Position numbers and translations under genes: made by a program. 49,304 bases of DNA from a virus. Under the pieces are notes generated by a model. That model ran no database searches, was not told where the DNA came from, and saw nothing but the letters and a program-made list of their open reading frames with translations. The stretch spans positions 1 through 49,304 of the IMG/VR virus record IMGVR_UViG_3300042397_002464, one strand, 5' to 3'. This document shows, piece after piece, positions 22,679-39,667 of this stretch (within the stretch, counting starts at the first letter, position 1; each line of letters opens with the position of its first letter).

Positions 22679-22684
22679 CCGACC

Positions 22685-22960
22685 ATGCCGAAATTCCGCA
22701 AGAAGCCCGTCGTCATCGAAGCGTTCCAGTGGACCGGCGGGCCGGACCAAACCTACGACCCCGTGTGGATCGTGGACGCGATCAAACGCTGCGAAGTTTA
22801 TTTCCGCGATAGCGGTTCGCCGTCAGTCCAGATGGGCATCAGGACGCTCGAGGGAACGATGGTGGCGCTCCCCGGCGACTGGATCATCAAGGGCGTGAAG
22901 GGCGAACTCTACCCCTGCAAGCCCGACATCTTCGCCGCGACCTACGAACCCGTGGAGTAA
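22685..22960 (+). CDS. Conserved small phage protein of unknown function
   Basis: 91 residues. [19 protein letters not shown] at the start and [21 protein letters not shown] near the end are the two halves of a very widespread phage protein family found in many temperate phages. No function is established that I can recall. It sits 6 bases after the HTH gene and shares its RBS style. Confidence 0.85.
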
Positions 22961-22966
22961 CCAGAC

Positions 22967-23164
22967 ATGGCCCGCTTCTACATGGGACCCTACGACTGCG
23001 ATCCGCTTGCCACGGCTGTCCAGGTCGGCCCCGGCTGGGTCCAGGTTCATCCCGGCTACGCCGTGCTGGACAGCCAGCTTCCCGCCGAAGACCGGCTCGT
23101 CGCTCTCGTCCCCGACCACGACAACGCCGCGCTGCTCGCGCGCAAGCTCAACGGAGAACCCTGA
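22967..23164 (+). CDS. Small early protein, unknown
   Basis: 65 residues (MARFYMGPYDCDPLATAVQVGPGW...), 6 bases after the previous stop and 1 base before the next start. Beta-rich with a helical C-terminus (DNAALLARKLNGEP). No family recognised. Tight packing in the operon is the main support. Confidence 0.65.
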   Translation: MARFYMGPYDCDPLATAVQVGPGWVQVHPGYAVLDSQLPAEDRLVALVPDHDNAALLARKLNGEP

Positions 23165-23165
23165 C

Positions 23166-23555
23166 ATGGAAGCCGTCGAAATCCTCACCAAAGCCGCGTC
23201 GCTCGTCGGCGGCGACCGCCAGCGCACGCACGGCGACAAGCGCGCGAACTTCGACAATATCGCGCGCCTCTGGAACGGGTATCTCCGCAACATCGCCGCG
23301 CGCGAAGGGCTCTCGGTCCGGGACGCGCAGGCGATGGAACTCACCGCCGCAGACGTGGGCTCGCTCATGGTCCTGATGAAGATCGCCCGCACCCAAGCGG
23401 GCGCGTTCAACCCGGACGATTATGTGGACGCGGCGGGCTACGCGGGCTGCACCGGACAGGTCGCGCAGGAGTTGGAGCAAGACCGGCTCGCCGCGCGCTC
23501 GATCGTGGACGATGCCATCGAGCGCGCGGCTCGGGAAGGACGGCTCGCGTCATGA
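23166..23555 (+). CDS. DUF6378-like protein
   Basis: 129 residues from the ATG at 23166; a longer in-frame reading runs through the previous gene. The pattern RTHGDKRANFDNIARLWNGYL ... VGSLMVLMKIARTQAG...NPDDYVDAAGYAG matches the DUF6378 family of phage proteins (from memory). The all-helical pattern with conserved His-Gly-Asp, Asp and Asp resembles MazG-like nucleotide pyrophosphohydrolases, but a nucleotide clean-up role is only inference. Confidence 0.75.
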   Translation: MEAVEILTKAASLVGGDRQRTHGDKRANFDNIARLWNGYLRNIAAREGLSVRDAQAMELTAADVGSLMVLMKIARTQAGAFNPDDYVDAAGYAGCTGQVAQELEQDRLAARSIVDDAIERAAREGRLAS

Positions 23556-23758
23556 GCGCCCGTTCGGACACGGACATCCTCGCCGTCGTCATCACGGCGC
23601 GCATGTCCCGCCTCGCGCTCACGACGTTGGAATTGCCGCAAGAAGAACTGGACGCGGGGCTCGACAAGACGCTGACGATCCGGGGCCTCGCGACCGGCGT
23701 AAGCGTCATTGTCCGCGCGCCGCACGAACTCCACGCCGCACCTATGAGGGTCCAATGA
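23552..23758 (+). CDS. Small early protein, unknown
   Basis: 68 residues; the ATG overlaps the previous stop by 4 bases and the next ATG overlaps this stop. Sequence MSARSDTDILAVVITARMSRLALTTLELPQEELDAGLDKTL... looks like a small alpha/beta protein. No family recognised. Confidence 0.6.
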   Translation: MSARSDTDILAVVITARMSRLALTTLELPQEELDAGLDKTLTIRGLATGVSVIVRAPHELHAAPMRVQ

Positions 23759-23946
23759 GCATCGACCCGTCCACCTACCGCCTCGAGCAAGTGTTTCTTT
23801 GTGGCGGGCACGGCTTCGGCTTCCGCGCCGTTGGCGTTCGCGATCTCGATCTTCTGTGGGCCGCGCGCGACCGCGAGCAAGACCAACGCAACGCCGAGCG
23901 CGCCGCGTCCTGGGCCGCGCGCTTCCGTGCCCTGAAAGGAACATGA
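23755..23946 (+). CDS. Small early protein, unknown
   Basis: 63 residues in an overlapping chain of small genes (ATGA junctions on both sides). MSIDPSTYRLEQVFLCGGHGFGFRAVGV is followed by a charged helix rich in Arg, Asp and Ala. No family recognised. Confidence 0.55.
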   Translation: MSIDPSTYRLEQVFLCGGHGFGFRAVGVRDLDLLWAARDREQDQRNAERAASWAARFRALKGT

Positions 23947-24173
23947 CCATGATCTGCATCCTCGTCGCGTGCGCGCTCGTCGCCGGGAGCGAAACCCGGT
24001 GCGATCTCTCGCAGAAGAACGAGACGCACGAAATGCCGGTCCAGGACCGGATGGAGTGCCAGACCGAGTTTCGCAAGCTCAAGGCCGGGCTCCCCGGCAG
24101 CGGCGGGCGCGCGATCTACTTCGACGCGAAGCCCGCGCCGATCACCGCCAACGAAGTCCTCAATTCCAAGTGA
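23943..24173 (+). CDS. Small protein with a hydrophobic N-terminus
   Basis: 76 residues, start overlapping the previous stop. MTMICILVACALVAGSETRC is a short hydrophobic stretch that could be a weak signal or lipoprotein-like sequence, followed by a polar domain with one more Cys (ECQTEFRKL). Secretion to the periplasm is possible, for example in superinfection exclusion, but not shown. Confidence 0.55.
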   Translation: MTMICILVACALVAGSETRCDLSQKNETHEMPVQDRMECQTEFRKLKAGLPGSGGRAIYFDAKPAPITANEVLNSK

Positions 24174-24184
24174 CGGGGCAAGAC

Positions 24185-24406
24185 ATGCGAACCACGAGAG
24201 GGATGGACGACACGTTGCGAACTTTTGTCGAGGCCGCCGAGGCGCAAGGCTGGCGCGTCGAACGGACGAACGCGAAGCACCTTCGCTTTGTCCCGCCGGA
24301 CAGGACCAAGCCCATCGTACACACGGCGGGCACGCCGCACGGCGGCAAGCGCGGTTACGCCAACATTCGATCCGATCTGCGCCGCGCCGGGCTGGTGCTC
24401 CCATGA
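24185..24406 (+). CDS. HicA-like dsRBD-fold protein
   Basis: 73 residues from the ATG at 24185 (an in-frame ATG six codons later is an alternative). GWRVERTNAKHLRFVPP ... GTPHGGKRGYANIRSDLRRAGL follows the HicA/YcfA pattern: a short helix, then GW..., a His in the beta-strand (KHLRF) and a C-terminal helix. HicA proteins are mRNA interferases neutralised by HicB. No HicB-like gene is adjacent, so this is an orphan that may act on RNA in another way. Confidence 0.65.
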   Translation: MRTTRGMDDTLRTFVEAAEAQGWRVERTNAKHLRFVPPDRTKPIVHTAGTPHGGKRGYANIRSDLRRAGLVLP

Positions 24407-24768
24407 TCGTCCCCGAGTGGATCGCGCCGTTCCGCGCGCGGGTCTTGCGTTGGCTCATCCTGGGCGAGCCCGCACCGCCGCTCACCGAGACACGCGCGGC
24501 TGCCGTCCAATGGTTGCGCTCGAAACGCATCGTGACATTGCGCGGCGAGCGCTGGCTGCTCACGGCCTACGGAACGCGGATCACGACGCCGCCCGCGAAG
24601 CCGGAGCCCGAAACCCAGCGGCGCCCGCGCCCTATCGCGTATCTCGCCGAGCAATCGGCCGAACGGTCCCGCGCCCGCTCGAACGCGCGCATCGACCGCG
24701 CGCAGGCGGTCCAGCGCGTGAAGCGTCTCGCGTCCCACGAAACCCTGCCCAACTTCAAGGAAGGCTGA
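24403..24768 (+). CDS. Basic early protein, unknown
   Basis: 121 residues, start overlapping the HicA-like stop (ATGA). MIVPEWIAPFRARVLRWLILGEPAPPLTETRAAAVQWLRSKRIVTLRGERWLLT could be a winged-helix-like domain. The C-terminus is strongly basic (RSRARSNARIDRAQAVQRVKR), suggesting nucleic-acid contact. No family recognised. Confidence 0.65.
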   Translation: MIVPEWIAPFRARVLRWLILGEPAPPLTETRAAAVQWLRSKRIVTLRGERWLLTAYGTRITTPPAKPEPETQRRPRPIAYLAEQSAERSRARSNARIDRAQAVQRVKRLASHETLPNFKEG

Positions 24769-24773
24769 ACGCA

Positions 24774-25343
24774 GTGTCCCACATCAACTTCTATGCGGGT
24801 ATCGATCCCGGCCTCACCGGCGCTCTCGCGGTGCTCGTCTCCCACGATCCCTTTGGGGACAGGCTGCCCGTGCCCGACATATGGACTGTGGATAACTTCC
24901 CCGTGTTCTCCACCAAGACAACGACGGGCAAGACCCGCAACGAATTGGACCTTGCTGGCACGCACCAGCTTTTCGAGCGCGTCTCGCCGGGCAACGGCCG
25001 CCAGGTTCTTTGCGCCATCGAGCGCGTCGGCGCCATGCCGGGACAGGGCGTGACCAGCATGTTCCGCTTCGGCCAGGCATACGGCCAGGTCCACGCGCTT
25101 GCCGTGTCCGTGGACTGGGCCATCAGGCACACGTCGCCGGGCGAGTGGAAGAGCGGCTTGCGTCTCGGCGGCGGCAAAGACGATGCGCGCAAGCGCGCGA
25201 TGGAGATTTGGCCTGCGCACGCCAAGCTGTTCGCCCGCGCGAAGGACGACGGCCGCGCGGACGCGGCGCTGATTGCGTACTGGCTTTGGCTCCAGAGCAC
25301 GAAAATCTACGTCCGCAATCAGAACGCGAAACGTTCGCCTTGA
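24774..25343 (+). CDS. RuvC-like Holliday junction endonuclease
   Basis: 189 residues from a GTG at 24774, with AAGGAAG 10 bases upstream. The RuvC/RNase H fold is clear: FYAGIDPGLTGAL (Asp11), CAIERVGAMPGQGVTSMFRFG (Glu83) and DDGRADAALIAYW (Asp159/163), which supply the acidic catalytic triad. It resolves branched DNA formed in replication and recombination before packaging. It is followed by the helicase gene with its own promoter candidate. Confidence 0.88.
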   Translation: MSHINFYAGIDPGLTGALAVLVSHDPFGDRLPVPDIWTVDNFPVFSTKTTTGKTRNELDLAGTHQLFERVSPGNGRQVLCAIERVGAMPGQGVTSMFRFGQAYGQVHALAVSVDWAIRHTSPGEWKSGLRLGGGKDDARKRAMEIWPAHAKLFARAKDDGRADAALIAYWLWLQSTKIYVRNQNAKRSP

Positions 25344-25369
25344 TTTTGTAGGGTGTTGTCCTATATGAA
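25340..25369 (+). promoter_or_regulatory. Candidate internal promoter for the replication genes
   Basis: TTGATT (25340-25345) and TATATG (25362-25367) are 16 bp apart. The motif TTTTGTAG (25344-25351) overlaps the -35, as a similar copy sits in the spacer of the main early promoter. It lies in the 80-bp gap ahead of the helicase gene. Confidence 0.45.
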
Positions 25370-25423
25370 GCACATCACCACCCTACTTTGCTCCGTGCTT
25401 CGTGTTCCGTGTCGAGGGTTCGT

Positions 25424-27151
25424 ATGAAACTCCGCGATTATCAGACTTTCGGCATCCGCTGGATGCGGTTTCAATCGCGCGCCGCGCGCATGTCGCCCAA
25501 CGCCGCTCCGCGTTTCGGCAGCGCGCCGTCCGCGACCACGCCGCTGTTGCCCGTGTTCCTGGCCGACGATCCCGGCCTCGGCAAGAGCGTGCAGTTCGTC
25601 AAGTTCGCAATCGATACGATTGCCGAGTTCGAGGACGTGCCGCCCTACATCCTTTTGATGGTGCCGAGCATCGGCCGCGTGTCTTGGGCCATCGAAGCGC
25701 CCAAGTGGCTCCCCGAGGATTGGAAAGTCGCGAGTGTCAAAGCCGACGGGCCGACCAGCTTCGAGCCCAACACCCTCTATGTCTGCACCTACGATCTCGC
25801 GGCCGTGAACCACGATGTCCAGCATCGCCTTTACACGCAAAGCTGGGGCGTCGTCGGTCTGGACGAAGCCCACTATCTCAAGAGCACGGAAGCCAAGCGC
25901 ACGCGGTTCGTCTACGGGCCGAAGTGCGACGGCGGCATGGACAGCCTCGTCGGCCGCGCCAAGATGGTCGCCTGCCTGTCGGGCACGCCGTCGCCCAACA
26001 ACGCGGGCGAACTCTGGACGCATCTCAACGCGCTGCGACCCGGCTTGCTGCGCGAGAACGGCATCACGAGCAAAACCCAATTCGAGGACACCTTCTGCAA
26101 CGTGCGCGTCGGCGCCTACGGGCGCCAGATCACGGGCTCGAAGAACCAGGAGCAGCTTCGCAAAATCTGCAAGACGTTCATCCTGCGTCGCCGCAAACAG
26201 GACGTGCTCGCGGACCTTCCCGCCGTGCAGGTCCAGGACACGCCGCTCGATCTCACCGACAAAGAGCGCAAGCAAGCGCTCGATCTCGCCACGCAGTTCT
26301 CGGGCAAGATGTTCGCCGACACCGGCGGCTCCGCGCCCGAGAGCGACGAAGCGCTGGTCGAAATGCTGTCGAAGCACGGGGCCAATCTCGCCGCCGTGCG
26401 CCGCGCGCTGGGCATCATGAAAGCTCCCGCCTCGGCGTCGTGGATCACCGCGCGCATCGAAAACGGCGTCAAGAAGCTGATCGTGTTCGCCTACCATCGC
26501 GACGTGCTGGATATTTTGCAGGACAACACGGAATTCAAGTCGGTTCGCATCGACGGCAGCACGCCGCCCGAAGAGCGCGCCGCCGCCGTGAAGCAGTTCC
26601 AGGAAGACAAGGACACGAAGATTTTCTTCGGCCAGATCGTCGCCGCAGGCACCGCCATCACGCTCACGGCGGCGAGCGAAGTCGTTCTCGTCGAGGCCGA
26701 CTGGGTGCCGGGCGTCAACGAGCAGGCAATCGCGCGCGCGCACCGCATGGGCCAGAGCAACGCCGTCCTCGCGACGTTCCTGTTCATGCCCGGCACGGTC
26801 GATCACCGGATCATGTCCGCGTTCCGCCGCAAGGCGCAGCAGACGCTCGCGATCTACGAGCCGACGCAGGCCGCCGCGCCCACGCGCACGCCCACGTCCC
26901 AGTGGTACAACATCCCGCCCCCGCCGACGCCGCCGCTCGTGTCCACCGGTCGGTCCTCGGGGCTCGTGAAATCCATCCTCGACGACGCCGCGCCTGAAAT
27001 TTTTGCAGGGCTCGGCAACGTCGAAGCTCGCGCCGTCGCAATGGCGATCCAGCGGGACCAGGACCGCGCCCGCCGACGGCAGGAAAGGGAAGCGGAAATA
27101 GCGCGCCAGCGCGGCAAGGCTTTCTACGAAGTTTTCAACCCGACATCATGA
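25424..27151 (+). CDS. SNF2-family (SF2) helicase
   Basis: 575 residues from the ATG at 25424 with GAGGG upstream. Motif I ADDPGLGKS (47-55), motif II DEAH (147-150), motif III LSGTPSPNNAGELW, and the C-terminal RecA lobe with GTAITLTAASEVVLVE and motif VI QAIARAHRMGQ are all present. The C-terminus is a charged helix. Phage SNF2 helicases of this size (SMARCAL1/HARP-like) occur beside DUF2800, DUF2815 and PolA genes and probably remodel replication forks. The order here fits that module. Confidence 0.9.
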   Translation: MKLRDYQTFGIRWMRFQSRAARMSPNAAPRFGSAPSATTPLLPVFLADDPGLGKSVQFVKFAIDTIAEFEDVPPYILLMVPSIGRVSWAIEAPKWLPEDWKVASVKADGPTSFEPNTLYVCTYDLAAVNHDVQHRLYTQSWGVVGLDEAHYLKSTEAKRTRFVYGPKCDGGMDSLVGRAKMVACLSGTPSPNNAGELWTHLNALRPGLLRENGITSKTQFEDTFCNVRVGAYGRQITGSKNQEQLRKICKTFILRRRKQDVLADLPAVQVQDTPLDLTDKERKQALDLATQFSGKMFADTGGSAPESDEALVEMLSKHGANLAAVRRALGIMKAPASASWITARIENGVKKLIVFAYHRDVLDILQDNTEFKSVRIDGSTPPEERAAAVKQFQEDKDTKIFFGQIVAAGTAITLTAASEVVLVEADWVPGVNEQAIARAHRMGQSNAVLATFLFMPGTVDHRIMSAFRRKAQQTLAIYEPTQAAAPTRTPTSQWYNIPPPPTPPLVSTGRSSGLVKSILDDAAPEIFAGLGNVEARAVAMAIQRDQDRARRRQEREAEIARQRGKAFYEVFNPTS

Positions 27152-27197
27152 AACCCGACACCAAATTCTACGTCTAACCCCGAAGAGGAACCGAACA

Positions 27198-27866
27198 ATG
27201 CCCGTCCAACTCATCGTCACCGAAGACCGCCCCGACATGCTGCGCCACGCGGCGCTGATCGCGCTCGGCCTGCCGACCACGCTCAACGGGCGGGTCGAAG
27301 CGCTGCGCCTCGAACTCGCTGCGCAAGGCTTGCGGCTCGAAGTCCACGATCCCGCACCCCCGAGTGACGTGCAGCCGACGCCCCTGACCAACGTTCCCGT
27401 GTCCAACGCGCCGCTCGAAGCTCCGGCCGCGCCGCCGCCCGCACCGGCGCCAGTGTCCGGTAAGGGGACCGCCAAGCGCTCCAAAAAGGACAAAGCCCCC
27501 GACGCCCCGGCGCCCGTGGACAGCGTGCGCTCCATGCCCGCGAACGCGCCGCGCCAGGCCGACATCGAAGATTTCACCGGGGACAACGAGCACCGTCCCG
27601 ATCTCGTGGACCCGCTCGCCGACGGCGCGGACGAGCAGCTTCCCGCCGCTGGCGCACCCGCGCCCGAGGCGCCCGCGTCCACGGGCAAGGAACACGAAGA
27701 AGCCCTCTTCCTGCTCCAGACCGCATATGCGCGCCCCGGCGGTCCCGCCGCCGTGAAGACGCTCCAGACCAAATACGGCGTCACGCGCTTCGTCAACGTG
27801 CCCGTCGAGCAGCATGTCGCGTTGCTCGCCGACGCGAAGGCGTGCCTGAAATCGGTGGGCGGCTGA
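27198..27866 (+). CDS. Protein with Pro/Ala linker, unknown, in replication module
   Basis: 222 residues. A short N-terminal helix-rich part (RPDMLRHAALIALGLPTTLNGRVEALRLELA) is joined by a long Pro/Ala-rich linker to a C-terminal domain (EEALFLLQTAYARPGGPAAVKTLQTKYGVTRFVNVP). The C-terminal part resembles small recombination or ssDNA-binding accessory domains of phages. Function unknown; position between helicase and nuclease suggests a replication role. Confidence 0.65.
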   Translation: MPVQLIVTEDRPDMLRHAALIALGLPTTLNGRVEALRLELAAQGLRLEVHDPAPPSDVQPTPLTNVPVSNAPLEAPAAPPPAPAPVSGKGTAKRSKKDKAPDAPAPVDSVRSMPANAPRQADIEDFTGDNEHRPDLVDPLADGADEQLPAAGAPAPEAPASTGKEHEEALFLLQTAYARPGGPAAVKTLQTKYGVTRFVNVPVEQHVALLADAKACLKSVGG

Positions 27867-28072
27867 TGGACACGCCGGAAGACAAAGCCAAGGCGGCGGA
27901 GTTGGCCTCGAAACTCAAGGCCATGAAGCAGAGCCATGTCCGTTGGATGCACGAGCGCCTGGCTTGGCGCTTCGTGCCCATCCCCAAATTCGTCCCCGGC
28001 CCCGGCGGCGCGCCCCGTGCGGGCCGCACCTACCGCGCCGAGCGCCGCAAAGCAGCGAAGGGCAAGCAATGA
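27866..28072 (+). CDS. Small basic protein, unknown
   Basis: 68 residues. The ATG overlaps the previous stop (TGATG) and the stop overlaps the next ATG. Helical N-terminus (DTPEDKAKAAELASKLKAMKQ) and basic Pro/Arg tail (YRAERRKAAKGKQ). Likely a translationally coupled accessory of the following nuclease. No family recognised. Confidence 0.6.
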   Translation: MDTPEDKAKAAELASKLKAMKQSHVRWMHERLAWRFVPIPKFVPGPGGAPRAGRTYRAERRKAAKGKQ

Positions 28073-29334
28073 CACAGACCCGCAAACACTCGCTGTTCGC
28101 GCCGAGTGCCACCAAGCGCATCCTGGAATGTCCCGGCTCCGTCGAGCTTTCCAAGCACGTCGAAGACCGCGCCGGGTTCTTCGCGGCCCAAGGCTCCGTC
28201 GCGCACAAGCTTGCCGAGGAAGTCCTGGCTGGCAAGACCGTCAAGCTGTCCGGCCACGTCGAGACGTTCGAGGGCCGCGAGATCGAGATCGACGACGAAC
28301 AGGAAGCCGCGATCCTCACTTACGTCAACTATGTGGACGAGTTGCGGCGGCGGCGCACGAGCCAGCAGCACGGCGGCTGGGTGCGTCTCGAAGAGACCGT
28401 GAACCTCGAACCGATCTGGCAGATGCTCGCGAAGCGCAAGCCGCCCGGCGACGTGTTCGGGCACCTGGATTGCGGCGCGTGGTTCCCCGACGAGGGCGAG
28501 CTTGTCATCGCGGACTACAAGCACGGCTCCGGCAACGCCGTCGAAGTCCGGGACAACCCGCAGATGTTCGTCTACGCGCTCGGCCTGCTCGGCGGGGTGC
28601 TGCTCAATGCCATGGTGAAGAAGATCACCATCGTCGTCGTGCAGCCGCGTTGCGACCATCCCGACGGGCCGATCCGCTTCTTCTCGATCCCGACCGTGGA
28701 CCTGTTCATGTGGGCGGCGGAAACCTACATCCCGACCATCGAGGCGGCGGCCAAGCCCGGCGCCAAGCTGTCCGCGAGCCCCGAGAACTGCAAGTTCTGC
28801 CCGGCCAAAGCCGAGTGTCCGGAGCTTCGCAAGACGGCTCTTGCCGCCGCGCGCCAGGACTTCGACGACGTGGTGGACAGCGACCCGCTGGCCCATCGCC
28901 CGCCGCCGCCCGAGCCGACCGTGCTGTCCAACGGCGAACTCGGCGCCATCATGGACCGCGCCGATCTGATCGAGACGTGGGTGGATGCGATCCGCAACGA
29001 AGCCGCGCACCGGCTCGAACACGGGCAGGAAGTCCCCGGCTGGAAACTTGTCGCGAAACGCGCCCAACGCAAATGGGCGGACGAGACGCAGGCCGAAGCG
29101 CTGCTCGCGCAGGCCGTCGGCGAGCGGGCCTACAAGTCTTCGCTGATCTCGCCCGCGCAGGCCGAGAAGCTGGTGAAGAAGCCGCACTGGAACGCGACGT
29201 TCGCCCCGCTCGTGTCCCAGGTGTCCAGCGGCACGACGCTGGCGCCCGCGTCCGACAAGCGCGCCGCCGTGCTCAAGGGTGCCGCGTCCCAATTCGACGA
29301 ACTGCCCTCTCCCGCCAGCGGCGAGGGGGCCTAA
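28069..29334 (+). CDS. DUF2800-type RecB/Cas4-like nuclease
   Basis: 421 residues from the ATG at 28069. LFAPSATKRILECPGSVELS, GSVAHKLAEEVL, GHLDCGAWFPDEGELVIADYKHG and a Cys cluster CKFCPAKAECPEL are the landmarks of the DUF2800 family, a PD-(D/E)xK exonuclease related to Cas4/RecB. Asp in GHLDCG and the Asp-x-Lys in IADYKHG form the active site, and the Cys residues may hold an iron-sulfur cluster. It probably processes DNA ends for recombination-dependent replication with the following ssDNA-binding protein. Confidence 0.87.
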   Translation: MTQTRKHSLFAPSATKRILECPGSVELSKHVEDRAGFFAAQGSVAHKLAEEVLAGKTVKLSGHVETFEGREIEIDDEQEAAILTYVNYVDELRRRRTSQQHGGWVRLEETVNLEPIWQMLAKRKPPGDVFGHLDCGAWFPDEGELVIADYKHGSGNAVEVRDNPQMFVYALGLLGGVLLNAMVKKITIVVVQPRCDHPDGPIRFFSIPTVDLFMWAAETYIPTIEAAAKPGAKLSASPENCKFCPAKAECPELRKTALAAARQDFDDVVDSDPLAHRPPPPEPTVLSNGELGAIMDRADLIETWVDAIRNEAAHRLEHGQEVPGWKLVAKRAQRKWADETQAEALLAQAVGERAYKSSLISPAQAEKLVKKPHWNATFAPLVSQVSSGTTLAPASDKRAAVLKGAASQFDELPSPASGEGA

Positions 29335-29411
29335 CCGATCCCCGGCATCCCGCCGTGGATAACCGCTCCGTTGCTTCGTGCTTCGAGCTTTCAACCAAGG
29401 AGAAAAACACA

Positions 29412-29984
29412 ATGGCACTTCGTACCCCCATCGGCATCCTGTCGTTCCCCAACCTGTTCGTCGCTCGCGCGGCGGTGCAGGGCGGCGAACCGCGCTTCTC
29501 GCTGAACCTGATCTTCGACGACGCGGCGCTCAAGACGCCGGAGTATCAGGCTCTCCGCGCGGCCGTGGCCGAAGCCATCGACGCCGAGTGGGGCGCTGGC
29601 AAGTCCAAGGACACGAAGTTCGTCCAGGGGCTTCGCCTGCCGTTCCGCAAGACCTCGGAGAAGGAATACGCGGGCTACGACAAGGGCACGATCTTCGTCC
29701 ACGCCTGGTCGAAGCAGAAGCCCGGCGTGGTCGATCCGCAGCGCCAGGACATCCTGATCGCCGACGACGTGTGGGCCGGGCAGCTTGCCCGCGCCACGGT
29801 GCGTCCGTTCGCCTATCAGCAGTCCGGCAACAAGGGCGTGAGCTTCGCGCTCGAAAACGTGCAGATCGCGAAGAAGGACATGCCCCGTCTCGACGGGCGC
29901 CAGTCCGCCAACTCGGCGTTCGACGACCTTCCGACCGAAGGCGGCAGCGCCTCGGCTCCGGTCGGCGACGACGCGCCGTTCTAA
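29412..29984 (+). CDS. DUF2815-type ssDNA-binding protein
   Basis: 190 residues, ATG with AAGGAG 10 bases upstream. RFSLNLIFDDAALKTPEYQAL, KPGVVD and a C-terminal acidic tail ending DDAPF are typical of DUF2815 proteins, which have an OB-fold-like body and an acidic tip as in SSB. It partners the DUF2800 nuclease in many phages. The 77-bp gap upstream allows a separate promoter, though I see none that is convincing. Confidence 0.87.
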   Translation: MALRTPIGILSFPNLFVARAAVQGGEPRFSLNLIFDDAALKTPEYQALRAAVAEAIDAEWGAGKSKDTKFVQGLRLPFRKTSEKEYAGYDKGTIFVHAWSKQKPGVVDPQRQDILIADDVWAGQLARATVRPFAYQQSGNKGVSFALENVQIAKKDMPRLDGRQSANSAFDDLPTEGGSASAPVGDDAPF

Positions 29985-30058
29985 GTCCGCCGTGTCGTGC
30001 CGTGTCCTGAAAGGGACACGGCACTTCACTACCACCCCAACCGCAGAAGGAAACACAA

Positions 30059-30286
30059 ATGGCCGAAGTCCCCAGCACGTCCGACCAGCGCACGGTCAAC
30101 AACACGATGCGCCACGCATACCGCGTTCTGTCCGACGCCGAGAAAGCGCAGATGCAGGCGATCAAGGACCAGGGCCTCGCCTTCCACGATCTCGTCGGCG
30201 CGCTCGGCAACAGCCGCGAACTCTCCATCGCCAAGACGAAGATCGAAGAAGCCGTCATGTGGGCGGTGAAGCACCTCACCGCTTGA
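30059..30286 (+). CDS. acb2: Acb2/Tad1-family protein, candidate anti-CBASS sponge
   Basis: 75 residues. TMRHAYRVLSDAEKAQMQAIKDQG followed by NSRELSIAKTKIEEAVMWAVKHLT matches the small helical Acb2/Tad1 hairpin family (from memory). Known Acb2 proteins bind cyclic di- and trinucleotide signals and so block CBASS immunity. Tyr21 and Lys36 have the same 15-residue spacing as the ligand-binding Tyr and Lys reported for Acb2. It is expressed early with the replication genes, as suits an anti-defence protein. Activity is inferred. Confidence 0.75.
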   Translation: MAEVPSTSDQRTVNNTMRHAYRVLSDAEKAQMQAIKDQGLAFHDLVGALGNSRELSIAKTKIEEAVMWAVKHLTA

Positions 30287-30293
30287 ACCCCAC

Positions 30294-30404
30294 GCCCGCC
30301 GCGCAGGCGGGCCGTCGCCAGACTTAGGGCATCAAAGGGGGCATAGCCCCGGCAAGCCCGGCGTTCAATCACGCCGCAGACGACGGCCCACCCGCGCGGC
30401 GGGC
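30294..30404 (+). ncRNA. Candidate structured RNA (three-stem)
   Basis: The gap between the Acb2-like gene and the next gene folds into one large structure. Arms 30294-30317 and 30381-30404 are complementary at 22 of 24 positions. Inside are two hairpins: GGGGC-ATA-GCCCC (30338-30350) and CGGCGT-TCAATC-ACGCCG (30359-30376). It is not a terminator since no T-run follows. It could be a small RNA, an RNA regulator of the following genes or a processed leader. Confidence 0.5.
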
Positions 30405-30426
30405 TTCTCACCACGAGGAACCCACC

Positions 30427-30618
30427 ATGCCCGCACCCACCATCGACGAAGTAACCCGGCTCACGCTGATCCGGGACTACCTGCGCCGCCGCGTCCAGGA
30501 GACGCGCGCCAGCACCATCGAAGCGAACACGCACGGCTACGCGCTCGCGCTCGAACTCAACTTCGTCGAAACCGTGTTGGCGGGGGTGAGCCATGCGCGC
30601 AGCGTCGCTCGCGACTAA
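30427..30618 (+). CDS. Small helical protein ahead of DNA polymerase
   Basis: 63 residues, ATG with GAGGAAC upstream. Mostly helical (IDEVTRLTLIRDYLRRRVQETRASTIEANTHGYALALELNFVETVL). Its last 26 bases overlap the polymerase start in another frame, so the two are translationally coupled. No family recognised. Confidence 0.6.
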   Translation: MPAPTIDEVTRLTLIRDYLRRRVQETRASTIEANTHGYALALELNFVETVLAGVSHARSVARD

Positions 30619-32641
30619 CAACCTGCCGCCGCATATCAAGTATCGGCTGCACCTGGACTACGAGACGTTCAGCGAAGCCGATCTCCGGCGCACGGGCGCC
30701 GAGCGCTATGGGTTCGACACCACGACCGACGTGCTCTGCGTGTCCTATCGCTTTGTGGAGATCGCGACAGGGACCGCGCGTTACGAGACCATCGACATGC
30801 GCAACGCGAACACGAACGGGCACCGCAAGAGGTTCGTGGAGTTTCTGCGCGACTGCTCGGTCGCGAACGACACGGTGTTCTGCGCCTGGAACGCCGCGTT
30901 CGAGCGCGCGATCACGAAGCAAGTCCTGGGCCTGGACATCCCGCCCCACCAATGGCGCTGCACCATGGCGCGCGCCGCGTTTTGGGGCCTGCCCATGAAG
31001 CTCGACGACGCGGGCGCCGCGCTCGGCGTCCCCGCCGAGACGCAAAAGAGCAAAACCGGCCACGCGCTCATGATGAAGCTGTGCCGTCCGCGCAAGCTCT
31101 CGGCGAAAGAGATCGCCGCCGGGGACAAGCCGGACTGGTCGCATCACACCGACGAGAACGTGAAGAACCTGATGGCGTACTGCGCGCAGGACGTGACCGC
31201 CGAGATCGCTGTCCACTCGCGCACGCCCGAACTCCCGGACATCGAGCAACGGGTATGGGAACTCGACCAGATAATGAACATACGCGGCGTCGGCGTCGAT
31301 CTCGCTCTCGTCAAGCGCCTGCACAGGATCGCCGACGAGGCGACGGCCGAACTGGACCGGCGCATGCATGCGCTCACGAAGGGCGCCGTGCCGAGCGCGC
31401 GCAACGCGAAGAAGCTCCTGTCCTGGGTCAACGCGCGCCTTCTTTTTCCGTTGCCCGATCTGAAACGCGGCACCATCAAAACCGCCGTCGCCAAAATCCA
31501 ACAACAAGAAGCATTTACCTACAACGTCGGACGAGACAAAGCGCTCGAAGCCCTCGAAATCCGCGCCGACGCGGCGCGCTCGTCGGCGGCGAAGCTGGAC
31601 GCGATGCTCGCCGCAGCGATGCCCGGCGTGAGTTCGTACCGCATCCGTGGGCTTCTCCAATACTACGGCGCCGGTCGCACGGGGCGCTGGGCGGGGCGTC
31701 TCGTCCAGCCGCAGAACATGCCGCGCCCTTCCTTCAAGACCGTGACGCAGGCCGTCGATGCCGTGCTCGCGGGGGCGACGTGGCAGGAACTCGAAATGCT
31801 CTTTCCCGAGAGCGCGCTCGGCGTCGTGTCGGGCTGCCTGCGCGCGTGCTTCACCGGCGATCTGGTGTCGGGGGACAGTTCGCAGATCGAAGCGCGCATG
31901 GTCGCCTGGCTCGCCGGGCAGCAGGACATCCTCGACGTGTTCGCGCGCAAGGAAGACGTTTATGTCTATACCGCCGCGAAGCTCGGCTCGAAGGACCGCC
32001 AGTTCGGCAAGGTGCTCGTGCTCGCGTGCGGCTTCGGCATGGGCGCTCCGAAGTTCCAGGACACGGCGCTCACCTACGGCGTGAAGCTCGCGCTGCCCCA
32101 GGCCGAAGACGCCGTGCGCGGCTGGCGCAACGCGAACCCCCGCATCGTGCAGCTTTGGTACGACTGCGACGGCGCCGCGCGCCGGATCGCATCGGGCTCT
32201 TCCAACATGGTCCAGGTCCGCTCGATCAGGTTCGAGCGCGTCGGGCGCAGCATGTTCGTCTGGCTGCCGTCCGGGCGGCCCCTCGTGTACCGGGAGATCG
32301 GCGTCGAAGTCGATCCGCGCACGGGCCGGGACAGCCTCGTCTACATGGGCGTGGACCAGAAGACGCGCAAATGGGCGAAGCTGCGCACCTACGGCGGCAA
32401 GCTCGTCGAGAACATCACCCAAGCCGCCGCGCGCGACGTGCTGCGCGACGCGCTGCTCGAAGCCGAGAGCCAGGGTCTCCACCCGATCCTCACCGTCCAC
32501 GACGAGATCATCGGCGAGCCCGCAGGAGACCCCAAGGCCAACCTCAATCGGATGCTGGCGTGCTTGCAACGACCCGTAGCCTGGGCGCCTGGGCTTCCTC
32601 TTGGCGCCGAGGGTTGGGCGGGCAAACGCTATCGCAAGTAA
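30593..32641 (+). CDS. Family A DNA polymerase with 3'-5' exonuclease
   Basis: 682 residues from the ATG at 30593. The N-terminal exonuclease has YRLHLDYETFSEADL (Asp-x-Glu) and CAQDVTAE. The polymerase domain shows motif A GDSSQIEAR (Asp about 427), motif B region DRQFGKVLVLACGFGMG and motif C TVHDEI (about 635). The usual motif A is DYSQIE; the Tyr is Ser here. The length and order match phage PolA proteins encoded with DUF2800/DUF2815. It is the last gene of the early operon, so it ends the replication cassette. Confidence 0.93.
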   Translation: MRAASLATNNLPPHIKYRLHLDYETFSEADLRRTGAERYGFDTTTDVLCVSYRFVEIATGTARYETIDMRNANTNGHRKRFVEFLRDCSVANDTVFCAWNAAFERAITKQVLGLDIPPHQWRCTMARAAFWGLPMKLDDAGAALGVPAETQKSKTGHALMMKLCRPRKLSAKEIAAGDKPDWSHHTDENVKNLMAYCAQDVTAEIAVHSRTPELPDIEQRVWELDQIMNIRGVGVDLALVKRLHRIADEATAELDRRMHALTKGAVPSARNAKKLLSWVNARLLFPLPDLKRGTIKTAVAKIQQQEAFTYNVGRDKALEALEIRADAARSSAAKLDAMLAAAMPGVSSYRIRGLLQYYGAGRTGRWAGRLVQPQNMPRPSFKTVTQAVDAVLAGATWQELEMLFPESALGVVSGCLRACFTGDLVSGDSSQIEARMVAWLAGQQDILDVFARKEDVYVYTAAKLGSKDRQFGKVLVLACGFGMGAPKFQDTALTYGVKLALPQAEDAVRGWRNANPRIVQLWYDCDGAARRIASGSSNMVQVRSIRFERVGRSMFVWLPSGRPLVYREIGVEVDPRTGRDSLVYMGVDQKTRKWAKLRTYGGKLVENITQAAARDVLRDALLEAESQGLHPILTVHDEIIGEPAGDPKANLNRMLACLQRPVAWAPGLPLGAEGWAGKRYRK

Positions 32642-32909: not shown

Positions 32910-33083
32910 CAGGACAAGAAGGGTCCGCCGGATCGAAACCCGATCAAATCCGGTCAAATCTTGCGTCCTGTGTCCTGGCGCCCCTGTCCTGCAAAGGGCG
33001 CCCGCTCTTTGGTAAGGACGGGGTCGAGTGTTCAATTCACTTCGGCGGCACCAGCACTTAGCTCCCACCGCGCGCGTGTCCTG
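32910..33083. other. attP region: core plus flanking repeats and hairpin
   Basis: The gene-free stretch around the core holds TGTCCTG at 32971-32977, 32985-32991 and 33077-33083, CGTCCTG at 32964-32970, and the inverted form at 32910-32916. A hairpin GGCGCCC / GGGCGCC lies at about 32977-33002. Repeats on both sides of an attP core are the usual place for integrase arm sites, but TGTCCTG is also common elsewhere in this genome. Confidence 0.4.
33008..33053 (+). other. attP: Probable attP core: 3' half of a tRNA-Thr(GGT) gene
   Basis: From the anticodon loop TTGGTAA (33009-33015) to CCA (33051-33053) the sequence reads as a tRNA: stem GGACG, variable GGGTC, T-arm GAGTG-TTCAATT-CACTT (33026-33042), acceptor CGGCGGC (33043-33049), discriminator A and CCA. 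The 5' half (D-arm, 5' acceptor) is absent. Phages with tyrosine integrases often carry such a 3' part so that integration restores the host tRNA, with crossover in the anticodon loop. Confidence 0.82.
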
Positions 33084-33106: not shown

Positions 33107-36100
33107 CTAGAAACCGCCCACGTTGCCGGTGTTCTTGCGCGTGTCTTTCTCGCCGACGGCCATGTTGGCGAACTTGTCGGCGGCCTGGTTCGACGTGAAG
33201 CCGTGCATCATGGCGCCGTAGAGCGCGCCCATCGCAGGCCCGCCGGGCGCCGACGACGCGAGCACGGCGACCATCGGCGAGAGCGTCGCTTGGTAGAAGC
33301 CCTTGGCCGCGTTCCATTCCGCCGTGTTCGTGTTCGCCGCGTTGCGCTCGCCGAACGCGCCCATCATCGCCTGCATGGCGCCGAGGAAGTAGCCCATGTA
33401 GGGACCGGCGTAGAGCCCCGTCAGATCGCGCTCGTAGCGCAAACCGGTCTGCGCCTGCACGAGCGGGTCGAACGGGCCGTAGAACGACGCGCGCGACGCG
33501 GCGAGACCGACCAGCCAGTCCCACAATTCGCCCTTCTTCTCCTTCTCTTCCCAGCGCTCGCTGTTGAAGACCGCCTCGCGAAGGATCGAAAACAGCAATT
33601 GGCCCATGAACGTCGAGGCGTAGAACGTCGTCATCGCCGCGAGCGTGCCGCCCATCGAGCGCAGCCAGGCTTTCGACGCGGGCTCGCCACCCTGCTCGAT
33701 GCGAAGCTGCGCGTCGCGGATCGTGCGCCGGTAGTTCTTGAGGACCACGTTGTTCCACATGGCATACGAGAACGACATGATGCCGAACGTCACGCGCAGC
33801 ACGGGGCTCGTCACGGCACCCAGGGGCCGGTCGGCTTTCTTGGGGTCTTGGATCGTGTGGTCCACGAGGCGGCGCAGGCCGACGCCGAGCACACGGATGT
33901 AGTTCGCATCGGGGTTGTTCGTGTCCGCGCTGTCTCGCTCGGTCTGCACCTGGCCGACGATTTGTTCGACGGGCGGCAGCCGGTCCTGCTTCGACATCCA
34001 CTCGGCGAATTGCCGGTGGTGCTGGTCTTCGATGCCGATCTCGCGCAAGTCGGCGCTCGCGATAGCGCGCTCGCTCGGCGTGGAAGACGGATCGACCAGC
34101 GTGCGGGACAGGGACCGGATCGCGTGGAACGCGCCGACCATCGCCGAGTTCGAGCGCTGGTAGCGCGTCACGGCCGCGAGGCCGTTGCGCTGGAAGAACT
34201 TGGCCGTGAGCTTCTGCGCGCTCACGCTGTCCGCGTAGTTCTGCCCGAAGCGCGTGTTCATGATCTCGTCGTGCTGGGGCGAGGCGTTGATCCCGAAAGC
34301 CATCGCGATCTCGGCAAGCTCGCGCGCGTTGCCGCGACGCACGACGTTCGCGACGTAGGTGCCGAGCGCCAGGCCCGCCGCCTTCACGTCGCGGGTCGCC
34401 GCAAGCACGGTGATCGGTTCGACCATCGAGGTCCAGACGGCGCGCGGCAACAGCGTGAGCGTGCCGATGGTGTTGAGCCAGGAGAACGCGCGCGAGATGC
34501 CCGTCGGCGTGCTGTCCCGGTTCCGACCGGCGGTGATCTGGACAAGCTCGCGCACCGTGCGCGCGTCCTCGGGCGCCAGCCCGCGACGCACGGCTTCGGC
34601 CAGCATGATCTCCTGGTAGTCCGCCTTCGACGGCGGCAGGAAGTCGCGCACGATCCGCATCGCGCCCGCGTAGGTGTCGGGATCGTGGACCTTGGGGTTC
34701 CAGCCCGTGCCCTTGCGCGTCGCCATCTTCGCCGCGAACTGGCGCACGTCGGACACGCCGCCGGGCGTGCCGAAGCGCTTGACGTACTCGACGCGGCGAG
34801 CGGCGTCCTGGACATAGCCCGCGACCAGATCGACCGGGTCCGTGACCATGTAGTCCTTCATCAGCGTGTCGGTTTCCGGCGGCAGCGCGCGCTTCTTCGT
34901 GAAGTTCGCGTCGGGCGAGCGGCCCCCGAAATCCATCGGGTCCCCAAGCTGCACGGCTTGACGCCAGGCGGCGGCCTTGTCCTGGGTCCACGCCGCGCGC
35001 GCCGGATCGTAGATCGCGTCCAGCGCGTCCTGGAGATCGTCGGACAGCTTCGCCAGGCGCTCGTCGATCTGGTCCGGGTCCGACGACGCGCGACGTTCTT
35101 TTTCGAGCTTCTTGATCTGGCGCGCGAGCTTCGCGATCCGGCGGATTTCGTCGCGGTTGTCGCGGCGGAAATCGAGACGCGCTTCGGGGCGAAGCTCGCC
35201 CATGATCTCGACCAGCGCCGCCGTGTCGAAGCGGTCGCCGGGCCAGGTGCGGCCGAACACGAGATCGTAGACCTTCGTGGCCTGCGCCTCGAAGCCCGCC
35301 GGGTCGGAGAAGACCGCCGTGTCGTCGGTCTGGCGCGGCAGGTAGTTCTCGACGAAGCCGACTTCGAGGCCCGTGCCGTCGTTGACCGTGCCGTCCAGCG
35401 TGCGGACATAGTAGAGCATGTCCTTCATCAGCCGCCGGAGATCGACGGCGAGCTTCACGACGGGTTCGCTGCTCGCCGTGGCGCGCGCCTCGTCGGGGTC
35501 CACCAGCAACGCGCGCAGCTTGTCGGTCTGCTCGGGCGAAAGATCGTCCTCGAAGCCGTGGCGCTTGAGAGCCATTTCGATTTGGGACAGGCGCTTGCGC
35601 CCGACCTGGGTAACGGCTTCCTCGAACGTCTCGCGCTGGACGCGGCCCGTGCCGGGCGCCGTCGCGACGGCCTCGCGCAGCGTCTTGAGGAAGGGTGCCG
35701 CGTCCTTCGGCGCGCGGTTCTCCAGCACGTTCCACACGCTGCGCTGCGCGTAGACGAACGCGCGCGCGCTGTCCGCCATGCGGCGGGTCCAGGGGTTGCG
35801 CGCGTCGGTGCCCTCGGCGCCGACGTTGCCTTTGAACGTCTGGCTCTTGAACATGCGAAGCTCGCGCGACCAGAACTCGAAGCTCGTGAGCGAAGGCGAC
35901 GGCGAGAGCTTGTAGAGGTTCGCGGGCGTGGCGATGTCTTCGGTCGTGCTCGGCGCCATGGCGGGCGCTTTGTCCCCGAAAGCCTGGGACACGCGCAGCC
36001 AGGTAAACAGGTTCGAGATCGACGAGAAGATCGCGGCGCGATCCGCGTCCTTGGGGAACGTCTCGGCCAGGCGGCGGTCGGCGTTGGACAGGTAGGCCGC

Positions 36101-39100
36101 ATCGCCCTTGGCGATGAACTCGTTGCCGCCGCCCGCCGCCGCGACCTTCGACGCGACGAAAGCTTCGGCGGCGCGCGCGAGCATTTCCATCGGGTTCGCC
36201 CAGTAGCCGGGATCGCCGAAGCCTTCGGAAGTCTTGGCGTAGTTCGACGCTTCGACGCCCTTGAGGACGCCGCCCTTGTTGGCGTCGAACTTGTCCAGTT
36301 CCTTCTGCGCCTTGCGCGCGGCGGGCGTGGGCTTGCCGTCGGGCCGGGTCTCCTGCGCTTCGACGACGAGCTTGGCGCGCGCGATCTGCACGGCGGCCTG
36401 GTCCTTGTAGAGCGCGCGCATGAGATCGAGCATCGCGCGCGGTCCGCTTTGCGTGGCGTCGAGCTTGCCCTTGGTCGCTTTGTCCGACGCGAAGCCCGGC
36501 TTGGCCGGGTCGATCCTGTCCATGAGAAAGTGGTCGAAAGCGTGCATCCATTCGTGCGCGAACGAGTTGGCGCGGCCGGGCATGTGGACCGAGCGCGTGC
36601 CGGGGTAGTAGGCGCCGAGATATTTGCCCCGGTACTTCTCGAACACGAGCGAGAGCGTGCCGTCGAGGCCGAGCGCTTTCTTCGGCAGGCCCAGCGCGTG
36701 CAGCATGAACTGGACGTTCTGGTACGCATCGAGCAGCGCATCGAGCGTTTCGAGCTTGTCGGCGCCCTTCGCCGCGCGCACGTCCTTGAAGCCGAACTCG
36801 TCTTTCATGAGCCGGGTGAGCACGGCGATCTGCTGCCCCTCGGGCATGAGCGCTGCCTTCTCGGGATCGAGCCCTGCGGCGCGGAACGCGCTCTGGTAGA
36901 TCGACGTGCGCGGCGTGAACGCCACTTGGGTCGTCGTGCGGGACAGGCCGCCGCGCGGCACGATGTTGTCGCCGAGCGCTTCGTCTTGCTCCAGCGCCGC
37001 GAACGTCTTGTCGGACAGGACTTCGCCGTCCGGCTTCGCTTTGCGCGTTGCGCGCTCGGGCGTGGCCGGGGGTGCCGCCGCGCCCGGCTGCCCCCCGGTT
37101 TGGCCCACGGCAGGTTTGCCGGTGGGCTCGTTCGCAGGCGCAGCGACCCGGCCCGGAGAGGACTGGCCGGGCTGCGCGGACTGCTCCTGCGAAACCGCGA
37201 AAAGGTCGTTGGTCTTGGGCGTCGTGATCGTCTTGACGATCTGCTCGGGCGTGACGCGCGCGCCGAACATGTCGCCGCCGGGCGTCTGGTTCGATGCTTC
37301 GTCAACGTAGCGGCGCAGGACTTCGGCGATCTTCGCGCGGCCCGCCGCCGTGGTGAGTTCGCCCGCCTTGTCCTTGTTGAAGAACGAACGGAACAGACCT
37401 TCGGTGACGGGATCGAGCGGATCAAACGCGTCCTGCTGCGCCACGACTTGCTGCGGCGTGCGGCCCTGCTCGCGCATCGTGCGCAGCATGCCCACGGCGC
37501 GCATGAGCTTGGGCGTCACGTCGAACGAGGGATCGACTTGCTTCGCTTCGATCAGCGAGCGCAGACGCGCCCACGCCGCCGAGGCGTCGATCAGCGCGCC
37601 CGTGACGCTCTTGGCGTTGTCGTCGGTCGCTTCCATCGCGCGCGACACGGTGTTCTGGTCGTCGTAGGCCCGCGCCAGCATGGCGCCCTGGAGACGCCGA
37701 GCGCCTTCCTGGGACAACGAACCGTCCGGGTTGACGACGGTGTTGCGCTCGGCCTGCGGCAGCTTCGCGACCCAGCCCTGGATGAACGGCCGGTTGCGCG
37801 CCGAGAGCACGTCCCCGTCCGGGTCGTAGCTCTTGAGCATGTCCGCCGAAAGCGCGTCGCGGTCGGCCTTCGCGCGCTCGGTCGCCGACAGCCCCATCGT
37901 GGCGCTTTGGTTGGCCTCGTAGACGAACGCTTTGCGGTCTTCGGGCGTGAGCGCCGACGTGCGCCGACGCACCAGGACAGGCTGTTTCTTGCCGTCGGTA
38001 GCGTAGCCCGCCTTCTGGAGCGCCTGGACATAGGCCGCGTACCGATCCGGGTTCTGCTCGGCGGCCTGGCGGATCGCGGCGACGCGACCATTGCCGCTTT
38101 CCACGATGTTGTCCGGCCCGACGATAGGCGCGCCCCGGTCGGCCTCGGCGCCCTGCATCAGGCGCTCGGGGTCCAGGTTCGCGGCGATGTTGGAAATCTG
38201 CTCGGCCGACGCGGCGCGGCTGCGGTCGCGCGGCTGGAGATCGCCGCTCGCGGCCTGTAGCTCGGCGAGATCGACGATCTCGTAGTTCGTGTCGATCTGG
38301 CGCCCGGCGGCCGTCATGACGCGCTGCTGGCGCGGCTGCGCGGGCTCTGGAGAGGCGACCGGCGCCGGGGCGGGGGTTTCAGGCTCGGGCTGCACGACCG
38401 GCGCTGTGGCGGGCTCCGGCGCGGGTTGCGGGGCCGGTGCCGCCGTTGGCTCGGGCTGGACCGGTGCGGGCGCGGGGACCAGATCGGCGAAGGCGTTGGG
38501 TGCGGCCTGCGGGGCCGGAACAAGATCGTCGAACAGGTTGGGCTGCGGGGCCGCCTGGGGCGCTTGCTCTGCGCGGCGGTCGCGCACGGCGCCCACGGCG
38601 GCGGGCACGCCCTCGACGGGCGCCATGGCGCCCTCGCCGAGCGCTTCCATGAACACCTGGCCCGGCTTTTCGATCTCGCCCTTGGTCGCAAGCTGCGCGG
38701 CGGCTTCGCCCCCGGCGCCCAGGATCATGCCCTGCGCGGGCTGCGCCAAAGTCTTGTCCACGAGTTCGCGGCGCACGGCACCGCGCACCATCTGTCCGGG
38801 GACAAGCGTGCGCGACGCGAGGCCGCCGCTCAACGCATCGGCACCGCCCACGATGCCCGCGCGCAGTCGCGCGGTTTCGCGCGCGGCGCCCATGATCTCC
38901 GGGTTCTGGAAAGCCTCGGCGAGCACCTGGGGATTGTTCACGTCCACGCCCGCGCCCTGGAGTTCTTCGATCAGCGTGCCCCCGTATTCGGCGCCGTAGC
39001 TGGACATGAACTGCGAGAGCACCGTCGCCAGCGTCGCCGCCGGAGCGCCGCCCAGGACACCGGCACCGGCTGCCGCGACCAGGCTCGGGATTTGCTGCGG

Positions 39101-39667
39101 CGCCGACTGGAACGTGACGCCAGCGGCGGCACCCAGCGGGTCCGTCTTGAAGACTTCCCACACCTGGCGCCAGTCGCCCGCGCGGTCCAGCGCTTCCATG
39201 ACGGGGCGCTGCGGGATCGTGGCGCGAAGGGCCTGCTCGTCGGCGACGCCCTGCGCGCTCGCCGCGATAGCGTCGGCGATGTTGGTCTGCGCCTGCATGG
39301 CCTGGTCGGGCGACTGCTCGCGCATGACGCGCGCGAGCCCGCCGAGAACGGGAGCCTGGCCGGGCGGCGTGTTGAGGATTTGATCGCGGGTCCCGGCGAA
39401 GCGCGAAGCAACGTCGAGCCCGAGCGCCTGGTTGCCCTGGCGCACGTTGGACATGCCGGTGCGCAGATCGTTTGCCAGGCGGGCGAACATGCTGGTGTTC
39501 GCATCGTGGGCTTCGGTCGCCGCGCGCAGCGGGTCCAGCGGATCGACCGGCGCTTCGATTGCGGCAGCGGGCGCCTGCGGGGCAGGCGCCGGAATGAGAT
39601 CGTCGAACATCCCCCCGCCTTGGCGGGTCTGGCCGGTGGGGATCAGGTCGTCGAACATTCCGGCCAT
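33107..39667 (-). CDS. Giant polyvalent virion protein (ddrB-ParB, LPD/HExxH)
   Basis: 2186 residues. Short FDDL(I/V)P repeats mark the N-terminus (residues about 5, 20, 385, 397). A ddrB-type ParB domain follows (about 470-640; IVESGNGRVAAIRQ), then a Pro-rich linker, then a polyvalent-protein metallopeptidase-like domain with HEWMH at 1038-1042 (HExxH). The last 500 residues contain hydrophobic, membrane-like stretches. The family of polyvalent proteins (as in P1 DarB) is packaged and injected with the DNA and can block host defence or act as an ejection protein. It is the last gene of the late operon, after three internal proteins, which fits. Confidence 0.8.
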   Translation of the reverse strand: MAGMFDDLIPTGQTRQGGGMFDDLIPAPAPQAPAAAIEAPVDPLDPLRAATEAHDANTSMFARLANDLRTGMSNVRQGNQALGLDVASRFAGTRDQILNTPPGQAPVLGGLARVMREQSPDQAMQAQTNIADAIAASAQGVADEQALRATIPQRPVMEALDRAGDWRQVWEVFKTDPLGAAAGVTFQSAPQQIPSLVAAAGAGVLGGAPAATLATVLSQFMSSYGAEYGGTLIEELQGAGVDVNNPQVLAEAFQNPEIMGAARETARLRAGIVGGADALSGGLASRTLVPGQMVRGAVRRELVDKTLAQPAQGMILGAGGEAAAQLATKGEIEKPGQVFMEALGEGAMAPVEGVPAAVGAVRDRRAEQAPQAAPQPNLFDDLVPAPQAAPNAFADLVPAPAPVQPEPTAAPAPQPAPEPATAPVVQPEPETPAPAPVASPEPAQPRQQRVMTAAGRQIDTNYEIVDLAELQAASGDLQPRDRSRAASAEQISNIAANLDPERLMQGAEADRGAPIVGPDNIVESGNGRVAAIRQAAEQNPDRYAAYVQALQKAGYATDGKKQPVLVRRRTSALTPEDRKAFVYEANQSATMGLSATERAKADRDALSADMLKSYDPDGDVLSARNRPFIQGWVAKLPQAERNTVVNPDGSLSQEGARRLQGAMLARAYDDQNTVSRAMEATDDNAKSVTGALIDASAAWARLRSLIEAKQVDPSFDVTPKLMRAVGMLRTMREQGRTPQQVVAQQDAFDPLDPVTEGLFRSFFNKDKAGELTTAAGRAKIAEVLRRYVDEASNQTPGGDMFGARVTPEQIVKTITTPKTNDLFAVSQEQSAQPGQSSPGRVAAPANEPTGKPAVGQTGGQPGAAAPPATPERATRKAKPDGEVLSDKTFAALEQDEALGDNIVPRGGLSRTTTQVAFTPRTSIYQSAFRAAGLDPEKAALMPEGQQIAVLTRLMKDEFGFKDVRAAKGADKLETLDALLDAYQNVQFMLHALGLPKKALGLDGTLSLVFEKYRGKYLGAYYPGTRSVHMPGRANSFAHEWMHAFDHFLMDRIDPAKPGFASDKATKGKLDATQSGPRAMLDLMRALYKDQAAVQIARAKLVVEAQETRPDGKPTPAARKAQKELDKFDANKGGVLKGVEASNYAKTSEGFGDPGYWANPMEMLARAAEAFVASKVAAAGGGNEFIAKGDAAYLSNADRRLAETFPKDADRAAIFSSISNLFTWLRVSQAFGDKAPAMAPSTTEDIATPANLYKLSPSPSLTSFEFWSRELRMFKSQTFKGNVGAEGTDARNPWTRRMADSARAFVYAQRSVWNVLENRAPKDAAPFLKTLREAVATAPGTGRVQRETFEEAVTQVGRKRLSQIEMALKRHGFEDDLSPEQTDKLRALLVDPDEARATASSEPVVKLAVDLRRLMKDMLYYVRTLDGTVNDGTGLEVGFVENYLPRQTDDTAVFSDPAGFEAQATKVYDLVFGRTWPGDRFDTAALVEIMGELRPEARLDFRRDNRDEIRRIAKLARQIKKLEKERRASSDPDQIDERLAKLSDDLQDALDAIYDPARAAWTQDKAAAWRQAVQLGDPMDFGGRSPDANFTKKRALPPETDTLMKDYMVTDPVDLVAGYVQDAARRVEYVKRFGTPGGVSDVRQFAAKMATRKGTGWNPKVHDPDTYAGAMRIVRDFLPPSKADYQEIMLAEAVRRGLAPEDARTVRELVQITAGRNRDSTPTGISRAFSWLNTIGTLTLLPRAVWTSMVEPITVLAATRDVKAAGLALGTYVANVVRRGNARELAEIAMAFGINASPQHDEIMNTRFGQNYADSVSAQKLTAKFFQRNGLAAVTRYQRSNSAMVGAFHAIRSLSRTLVDPSSTPSERAIASADLREIGIEDQHHRQFAEWMSKQDRLPPVEQIVGQVQTERDSADTNNPDANYIRVLGVGLRRLVDHTIQDPKKADRPLGAVTSPVLRVTFGIMSFSYAMWNNVVLKNYRRTIRDAQLRIEQGGEPASKAWLRSMGGTLAAMTTFYASTFMGQLLFSILREAVFNSERWEEKEKKGELWDWLVGLAASRASFYGPFDPLVQAQTGLRYERDLTGLYAGPYMGYFLGAMQAMMGAFGERNAANTNTAEWNAAKGFYQATLSPMVAVLASSAPGGPAMGALYGAMMHGFTSNQAADKFANMAVGEKDTRKNTGNVGGF

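Follow-up and report, generated by a model that had tools for sequence, protein, structure and literature searches.

A tRNA-Thr(GGT) 3' half located 12 kb from the integrase gene as the predicted attP core of an alphaproteobacterial phage

The window, the whole 49,304-nucleotide stretch of virus record IMGVR_UViG_3300042397_002464, carries at positions 33009-33053 (plus strand) the 45-bp sequence TTGGTAAGGACGGGGTCGAGTGTTCAATTCACTTCGGCGGCACCA, read directly, which corresponds to the 3' half of a tRNA-Thr(GGT) gene from the anticodon loop to CCA. We propose, at a probability of roughly 0.93, that this segment is the attP core of a temperate alphaproteobacterial phage, that it uses the host tRNA-Thr(GGT) gene as attB, and that it is served by a distal integrase gene. 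This prediction from genome sequences is the best explanation of what is directly seen in them, that is, the identity of the core, its position, the synteny with related phages and an integrated relative.

When folded by eye, the core covers tRNA positions 32-76, and includes the loop TTGGTAA with anticodon GGT for Thr, the 3' strand GGACG of the anticodon stem, the variable loop GGGTC, the T arm GAGTG-TTCAATT-CACTT (five pairs and the loop TTCAATT), the acceptor strand CGGCGGC, A73 and CCA. The first-pass annotation had placed a tRNA-Thr(GGT) 3' half of 46 bp at 33008-33053. Its identification of the gene holds, but the length is corrected to 45 bp starting from 33009, because base 33008 is T in the window and C in both host tRNA-Thr genes described below. 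The same annotation considered the 5' half of the tRNA to be absent, in good agreement with our finding of no complete tRNA in the window by ARAGORN and no Rfam match at E<=1, from which we conclude that the 5' half is missing. A generic pattern for the tRNA-Thr 3' half, with three mismatches permitted, gave one match in the window versus none in 100 dinucleotide shuffles. No second tRNA half was found in the window, including the vicinity of the integrase gene, and a nucleotide search of the att region against named phages gave no matches.

An exact search for the 45-mer across some 85,000 genomes of bacteria and archaea identified only two matches, both in Alphaproteobacteria and both within an intact 75-nt tRNA-Thr(GGT) gene, one in the alphaproteobacterial MAG VGDA01000311 and the other in the Phreatobacter MAG NZ_JAEULY010000029. 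The agreement is 45/45 with the intact tRNA-Thr genes (L005 and L006). Each of the two genomes carries a single copy of the 45 bp, as expected for an empty attB, and neither encodes an integrase related to that of the window. Among viral contigs, the sole other match is in a different phage, L002, where the 45 bp are located 18 bp past the stop codon of that phage's integrase gene (PF00589), whose product shows only weak similarity to the window integrase. Since two different phages share the tRNA half, and in L002 it lies beside an integrase, we consider the 45 bp to be a real attP core.

Williams reportedly set out in 2002 an anticodon-loop class of tRNA attachment sites for tyrosine integrases. 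This class corresponds to class A of Islander (PMC4383910), in which 3' tRNA fragments were found in 3760 of 3919 islands and 5' fragments in 159. The window core begins in the anticodon loop and extends to the end of the tRNA, and thus falls in this class, which it resembles further in its length of 45 bp and in the rebuilding of the tRNA by the phage that we infer here. Unlike that class, the window attP lies 12 kb from the integrase gene, and one member of its clade, the prophage G741, uses the rare 5' fragment. The attP sites of mycobacteriophage tyrosine integrases likewise have a core of 30-45 bp with the host tRNA 3' half, the tRNA being rebuilt at attL; that of Boilgate, however, is located immediately upstream of the integrase gene, while in the window the early operon stands between (PMC10865867). 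The same paper describes phages of tRNA-dependent lysogeny, in which a short core destroys the host tRNA and a phage-encoded tRNA replaces it. We ruled out this type for the window phage, because a 45-bp core would rebuild the tRNA and ARAGORN detected no phage-encoded tRNA gene in the window.

For tRNA-derived attP sites of tyrosine integrases, a position beside the integrase gene is usual but not defining. The window integrase, of 346 amino acids, is encoded at 19871-20911 on the minus strand (PF00589, E 1.3e-9; PHROG integrase, 3.3e-38); the catalytic residues R206, K237, H294, R297 and Y329 are conserved, and D320 takes the place of the usual second His in all of this integrase family. Adjoining it is a gene for an HTH repressor (21066-21530, minus strand; HTH_31, 2e-7; PHROG transcriptional repressor). 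The early operon (21650-32641, plus strand) then follows, encoding DUF6378, a RuvC-type resolvase, an SNF2 helicase, an exonuclease and DNA polymerase A as assigned by domain matches, and it is collinear in relatives. Its last gene, polA (30593-32641, plus strand; PHROG DNA polymerase, 1.2e-95), forms the left flank of attP. On the right flank, a giant gene at the end of the late operon (33107-39667, minus strand) encodes a protein of 2186 amino acids with ddrB-ParB and LPD1 domains (Pfam, PHROG and homology), of which a homologue with 38% identity over 1360 amino acids is annotated in phage Mae-Yong1326-1 as peptidoglycan transglycosylase. The late operon is on the minus strand, with the capsid, portal and terminase genes farther on than the giant gene, and CobS/CobT-like genes and a primase gene lie on the opposite side of the integrase gene. 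The attP core is thus located at the junction of the convergent polA and giant late genes, and 12.1 kb separate the integrase gene (from 20911) and the core (at 33009), with the repressor gene and early operon inside; the first-pass annotation had given a gap of about 12 kb holding the whole early operon. The contig ends (1-1260 and 49020-49304) appear to be repetitive, fibre-like coding sequence on the minus strand and not host DNA; positions 291-430 and 1046-1185 are 76% alike, and such repeats are the likely reason why the assembly stopped.

The distal position of attP is common to relatives of the window phage, the distance being 12-15 kb in four of them. The Microcystis phage Mae-Yong1326-1 (OP028995, L004; 48.8 kb) is collinear with the window, with identities of 70% for the major capsid protein, 47% for PolA and 49% for the integrase. 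At 22971-23015, between its final early gene and the homologue of the giant gene, it carries a different tRNA-Thr(GGT) 3' half, and this sequence difference indicates that the hosts of the two phages probably differ. The Mae-Yong1326-1 half exactly matches an intact tRNA-Thr(GGT) gene with encoded CCA in an alphaproteobacterial genome (G220; L158, 411-485), which casts doubt on Microcystis as the host and raises the possibility, as far as such a match can tell, that the phage in fact infects an alphaproteobacterium present in the Microcystis culture. The published description (PMC9503304), in the passages considered here, makes no mention of attP, and it lists alphaproteobacterial sequences as best hits for several proteins and a tail of 340 nm. 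Despite this tail, the capsid, portal and packaging genes of Mae-Yong1326-1 resemble those of the window phage, in which no long-tail genes were recognised. Its GC content is 71.8%. Further tRNA-Thr(GGT) halves were found downstream of polA, 14-15 kb from the integrase gene, in viral contigs G002 and G004; in the former the giant gene follows the tRNA half, and the latter contig stops 76 bp on. G003 and G026 also share the gene order of the window. The att junction of G003 carries a 30-nt tRNA-Thr fragment of T arm and acceptor, inverted and without anticodon loop (L111, 2044-2078; about 12443-12477 of G003, minus strand), which suggests a decayed or re-oriented attP. In G026, no tRNA half was recognised at the junction, a search for 5' halves included.

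In order to find integrated members of the lineage, genomes from the order to which the Phreatobacter MAG belongs were searched for capsid homologues, and this identified G741, a complete, collinear prophage of 46.9 kb at 570962-617947 of a 5.2-Mb bacterial contig (C1; L146/L148). It is bounded by perfect direct repeats of 46 bp (570962-571007 and 617902-617947), and the left repeat consists of nucleotides 1-43 of an intact tRNA-Ser(GCT) gene plus three bases. On its left the prophage starts where the giant late gene ends, and on its right it stops beyond polA, which corresponds to the att junction of the window; the integrase gene (603024-604061) is set 32 kb in from the left end and 13.8 kb in from the right. 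This lineage thus includes an integrated phage in which att is distal. The first-pass annotation had taken prophages of this type bounded at another site as evidence against its proposal: the junction within the phage is as predicted, whereas the host target is tRNA-Ser(GCT) and the half carried is the 5' one, unlike the 3' half of tRNA-Thr in the window. Since G741 brings the 5' half, it must supply the promoter also, and a promoter-like TTGTGT-17-TACAAA was read by eye upstream of the rebuilt tRNA-Ser gene. Judging from these genomes, the host target varies across the lineage and the att position in the phage is constant. The cores of the window and of G741 are arranged alike: each has its anticodon arm at the border nearest polA, and from there the tRNA half runs in the direction of the late gene. 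Such an arrangement would be expected of an integrase that recognises the near-symmetric anticodon arm, as has been proposed for tRNA sites generally (PMC8371274).

Prophages ending in tRNA-Thr had been anticipated together with a matching host tRNA-Thr gene in alphaproteobacterial genomes; the latter was found (two genomes), but no prophage of the window clade was detected within tRNA-Thr(GGT) in the family of the Phreatobacter MAG or in partial samples of its order and class, nor any phage of the clade in 56 viral contigs with a complete tRNA-Thr. Related integrases adjoin tRNA-Thr(GGT) in two bacterial contigs, and one is also found next to a tRNA-Thr match in a viral contig. Integration of the window phage into tRNA-Thr is thus deduced from the attP/attB identity, L002 and the related integrases beside tRNA-Thr.

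The half tRNA might instead be left over, without function, from a tRNA gene that was ancestral or had been captured, the active attP being elsewhere, such as beside the integrase gene. The degenerate inverted Thr fragment of G003 and the lack of a recognisable half in G026 are in line with such decay, but the window core is identical at 45/45 positions to living tRNA genes, while a remnant would decay. The core is also common to two different phages, relatives hold different intact halves at the same junction, no tRNA half lies near the integrase gene of the window, and the complete relative G741 is integrated at the junction; we therefore regard the remnant explanation as very improbable.

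There is an equally small chance that attP is real and used by another recombinase, of the host or of another element, instead of the integrase at 19871. The pairing of a different integrase with the identical attB sequence in L002 fits this idea. On the other hand, the integrase is the only one among the scanned window ORFs and is retained in all clade members compared, and in sister phages its homologues are immediate neighbours of tRNA-derived att sites, tRNA-Thr among them. The integrase gene is beside att in the sister prophages G521, in tRNA-Arg(CCG), and G411, in tRNA-Ala(GGC), each with 49-bp repeats. The isolate Rhizobium phage RHph_N65 (MN988536) shares with the window homologous capsid, integrase, repressor and early module and a tRNA-Thr 3' half at the end of the late operon (about 11799-11845), but the anticodon is CGT, the integrase gene (from 12621) faces attP about 0.8 kb off, and the early module runs the other way. 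Mis-joining of the contig as the source of the distance between the integrase gene and attP is hardly credible, for although the window comes from a metagenome as a linear record whose ends are rich in repeats, the gene order recurs in the isolate Mae-Yong1326-1 (616-fold coverage; PMC9503304), in viral contig G002 and in the 5.2-Mb bacterial contig, which refutes this explanation for the lineage.

In the integrase tree, seven members with the distal gene order form one clade (support 95/96), and the relatives with adjacent integrase genes fall outside; the terminase (TerL) tree agrees with this distal clade more weakly (80/89). G026 and G003 were placed in the distal group on gene order alone. 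The module from the integrase gene through repressor, SNF2 and exonuclease genes to polA has its integrase end toward the end of the late operon in RHph_N65 and its polA end there in the window, and the distal layout would probably be explained by a single inversion of the module during which att stayed behind at the late-operon end. A tRNA half as attP is textbook knowledge, and its lineage-wide displacement from the integrase gene is an uncommon variant. We found no explicit reports of an attP remote from the integrase gene in the open-access literature, and do not claim that the arrangement is without precedent.

For integration, the phage genome would circularise, and the integrase (19871-20911) would recombine attP, remote from its own gene, with attB in the host tRNA-Thr(GGT) gene, presumably with strand exchange in or adjoining the anticodon loop. 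The tRNA 5' half with its promoter would remain that of the host and the 3' half would come from the phage, so that the tRNA would be rebuilt at the prophage end beside the giant late gene. The other end, beyond polA, would be marked by the 3' half displaced from the host gene. Since the early and late operons converge on att, integration would interrupt neither of them, and the integrase and repressor genes would come to lie internally, some 13 kb away from the closer prophage end. As a tentative generalisation, to which we give somewhat less than even odds, att may be anchored at the early/late convergence while the tRNA content (different tRNA-Thr(GGT) sequences and tRNA-Ser) and the half (3' or 5') swap, since the integrase reads the near-symmetric anticodon arm, with the integrase gene displaced once by inversion and acting remotely. 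If this is true, attachment specificity evolves independently of the position of the integrase gene.

Prophage finders and attP predictors commonly search beside the integrase gene and would miss distal sites such as this. In addition, a tRNA half can reveal the host of a phage wherever in the genome it lies; the window attP points an uncultured phage to a Phreatobacter-like alphaproteobacterium. The clade also offers paired natural examples, with the integrase gene near or far from att, on the role of its position in the control of integration and excision.

Four TGTCCTG/CAGGACA heptamers, candidate arm-type integrase sites, flank the core within 32910-33083 (at 32910 on the minus strand and at 32971, 32985 and 33077 on the plus strand; P 0.0003 for the window, a post hoc choice), and the att flanks of G741 also carry four (P 7.5e-5); in the other relatives, enrichment at the att flanks is absent or not significant. 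TGTCCTG occurs 42 times in the window versus 3.9 expected (order-2 Markov) and 89 times in Mae-Yong1326-1. Since it is over-represented genome-wide and, besides the gap at 32910-33083, clusters in two unrelated intergenic gaps (1509-1559 and 11884-12279), we do not claim these heptamers as arm sites; the clusters are possibly sites for a regulator or for the integrase.
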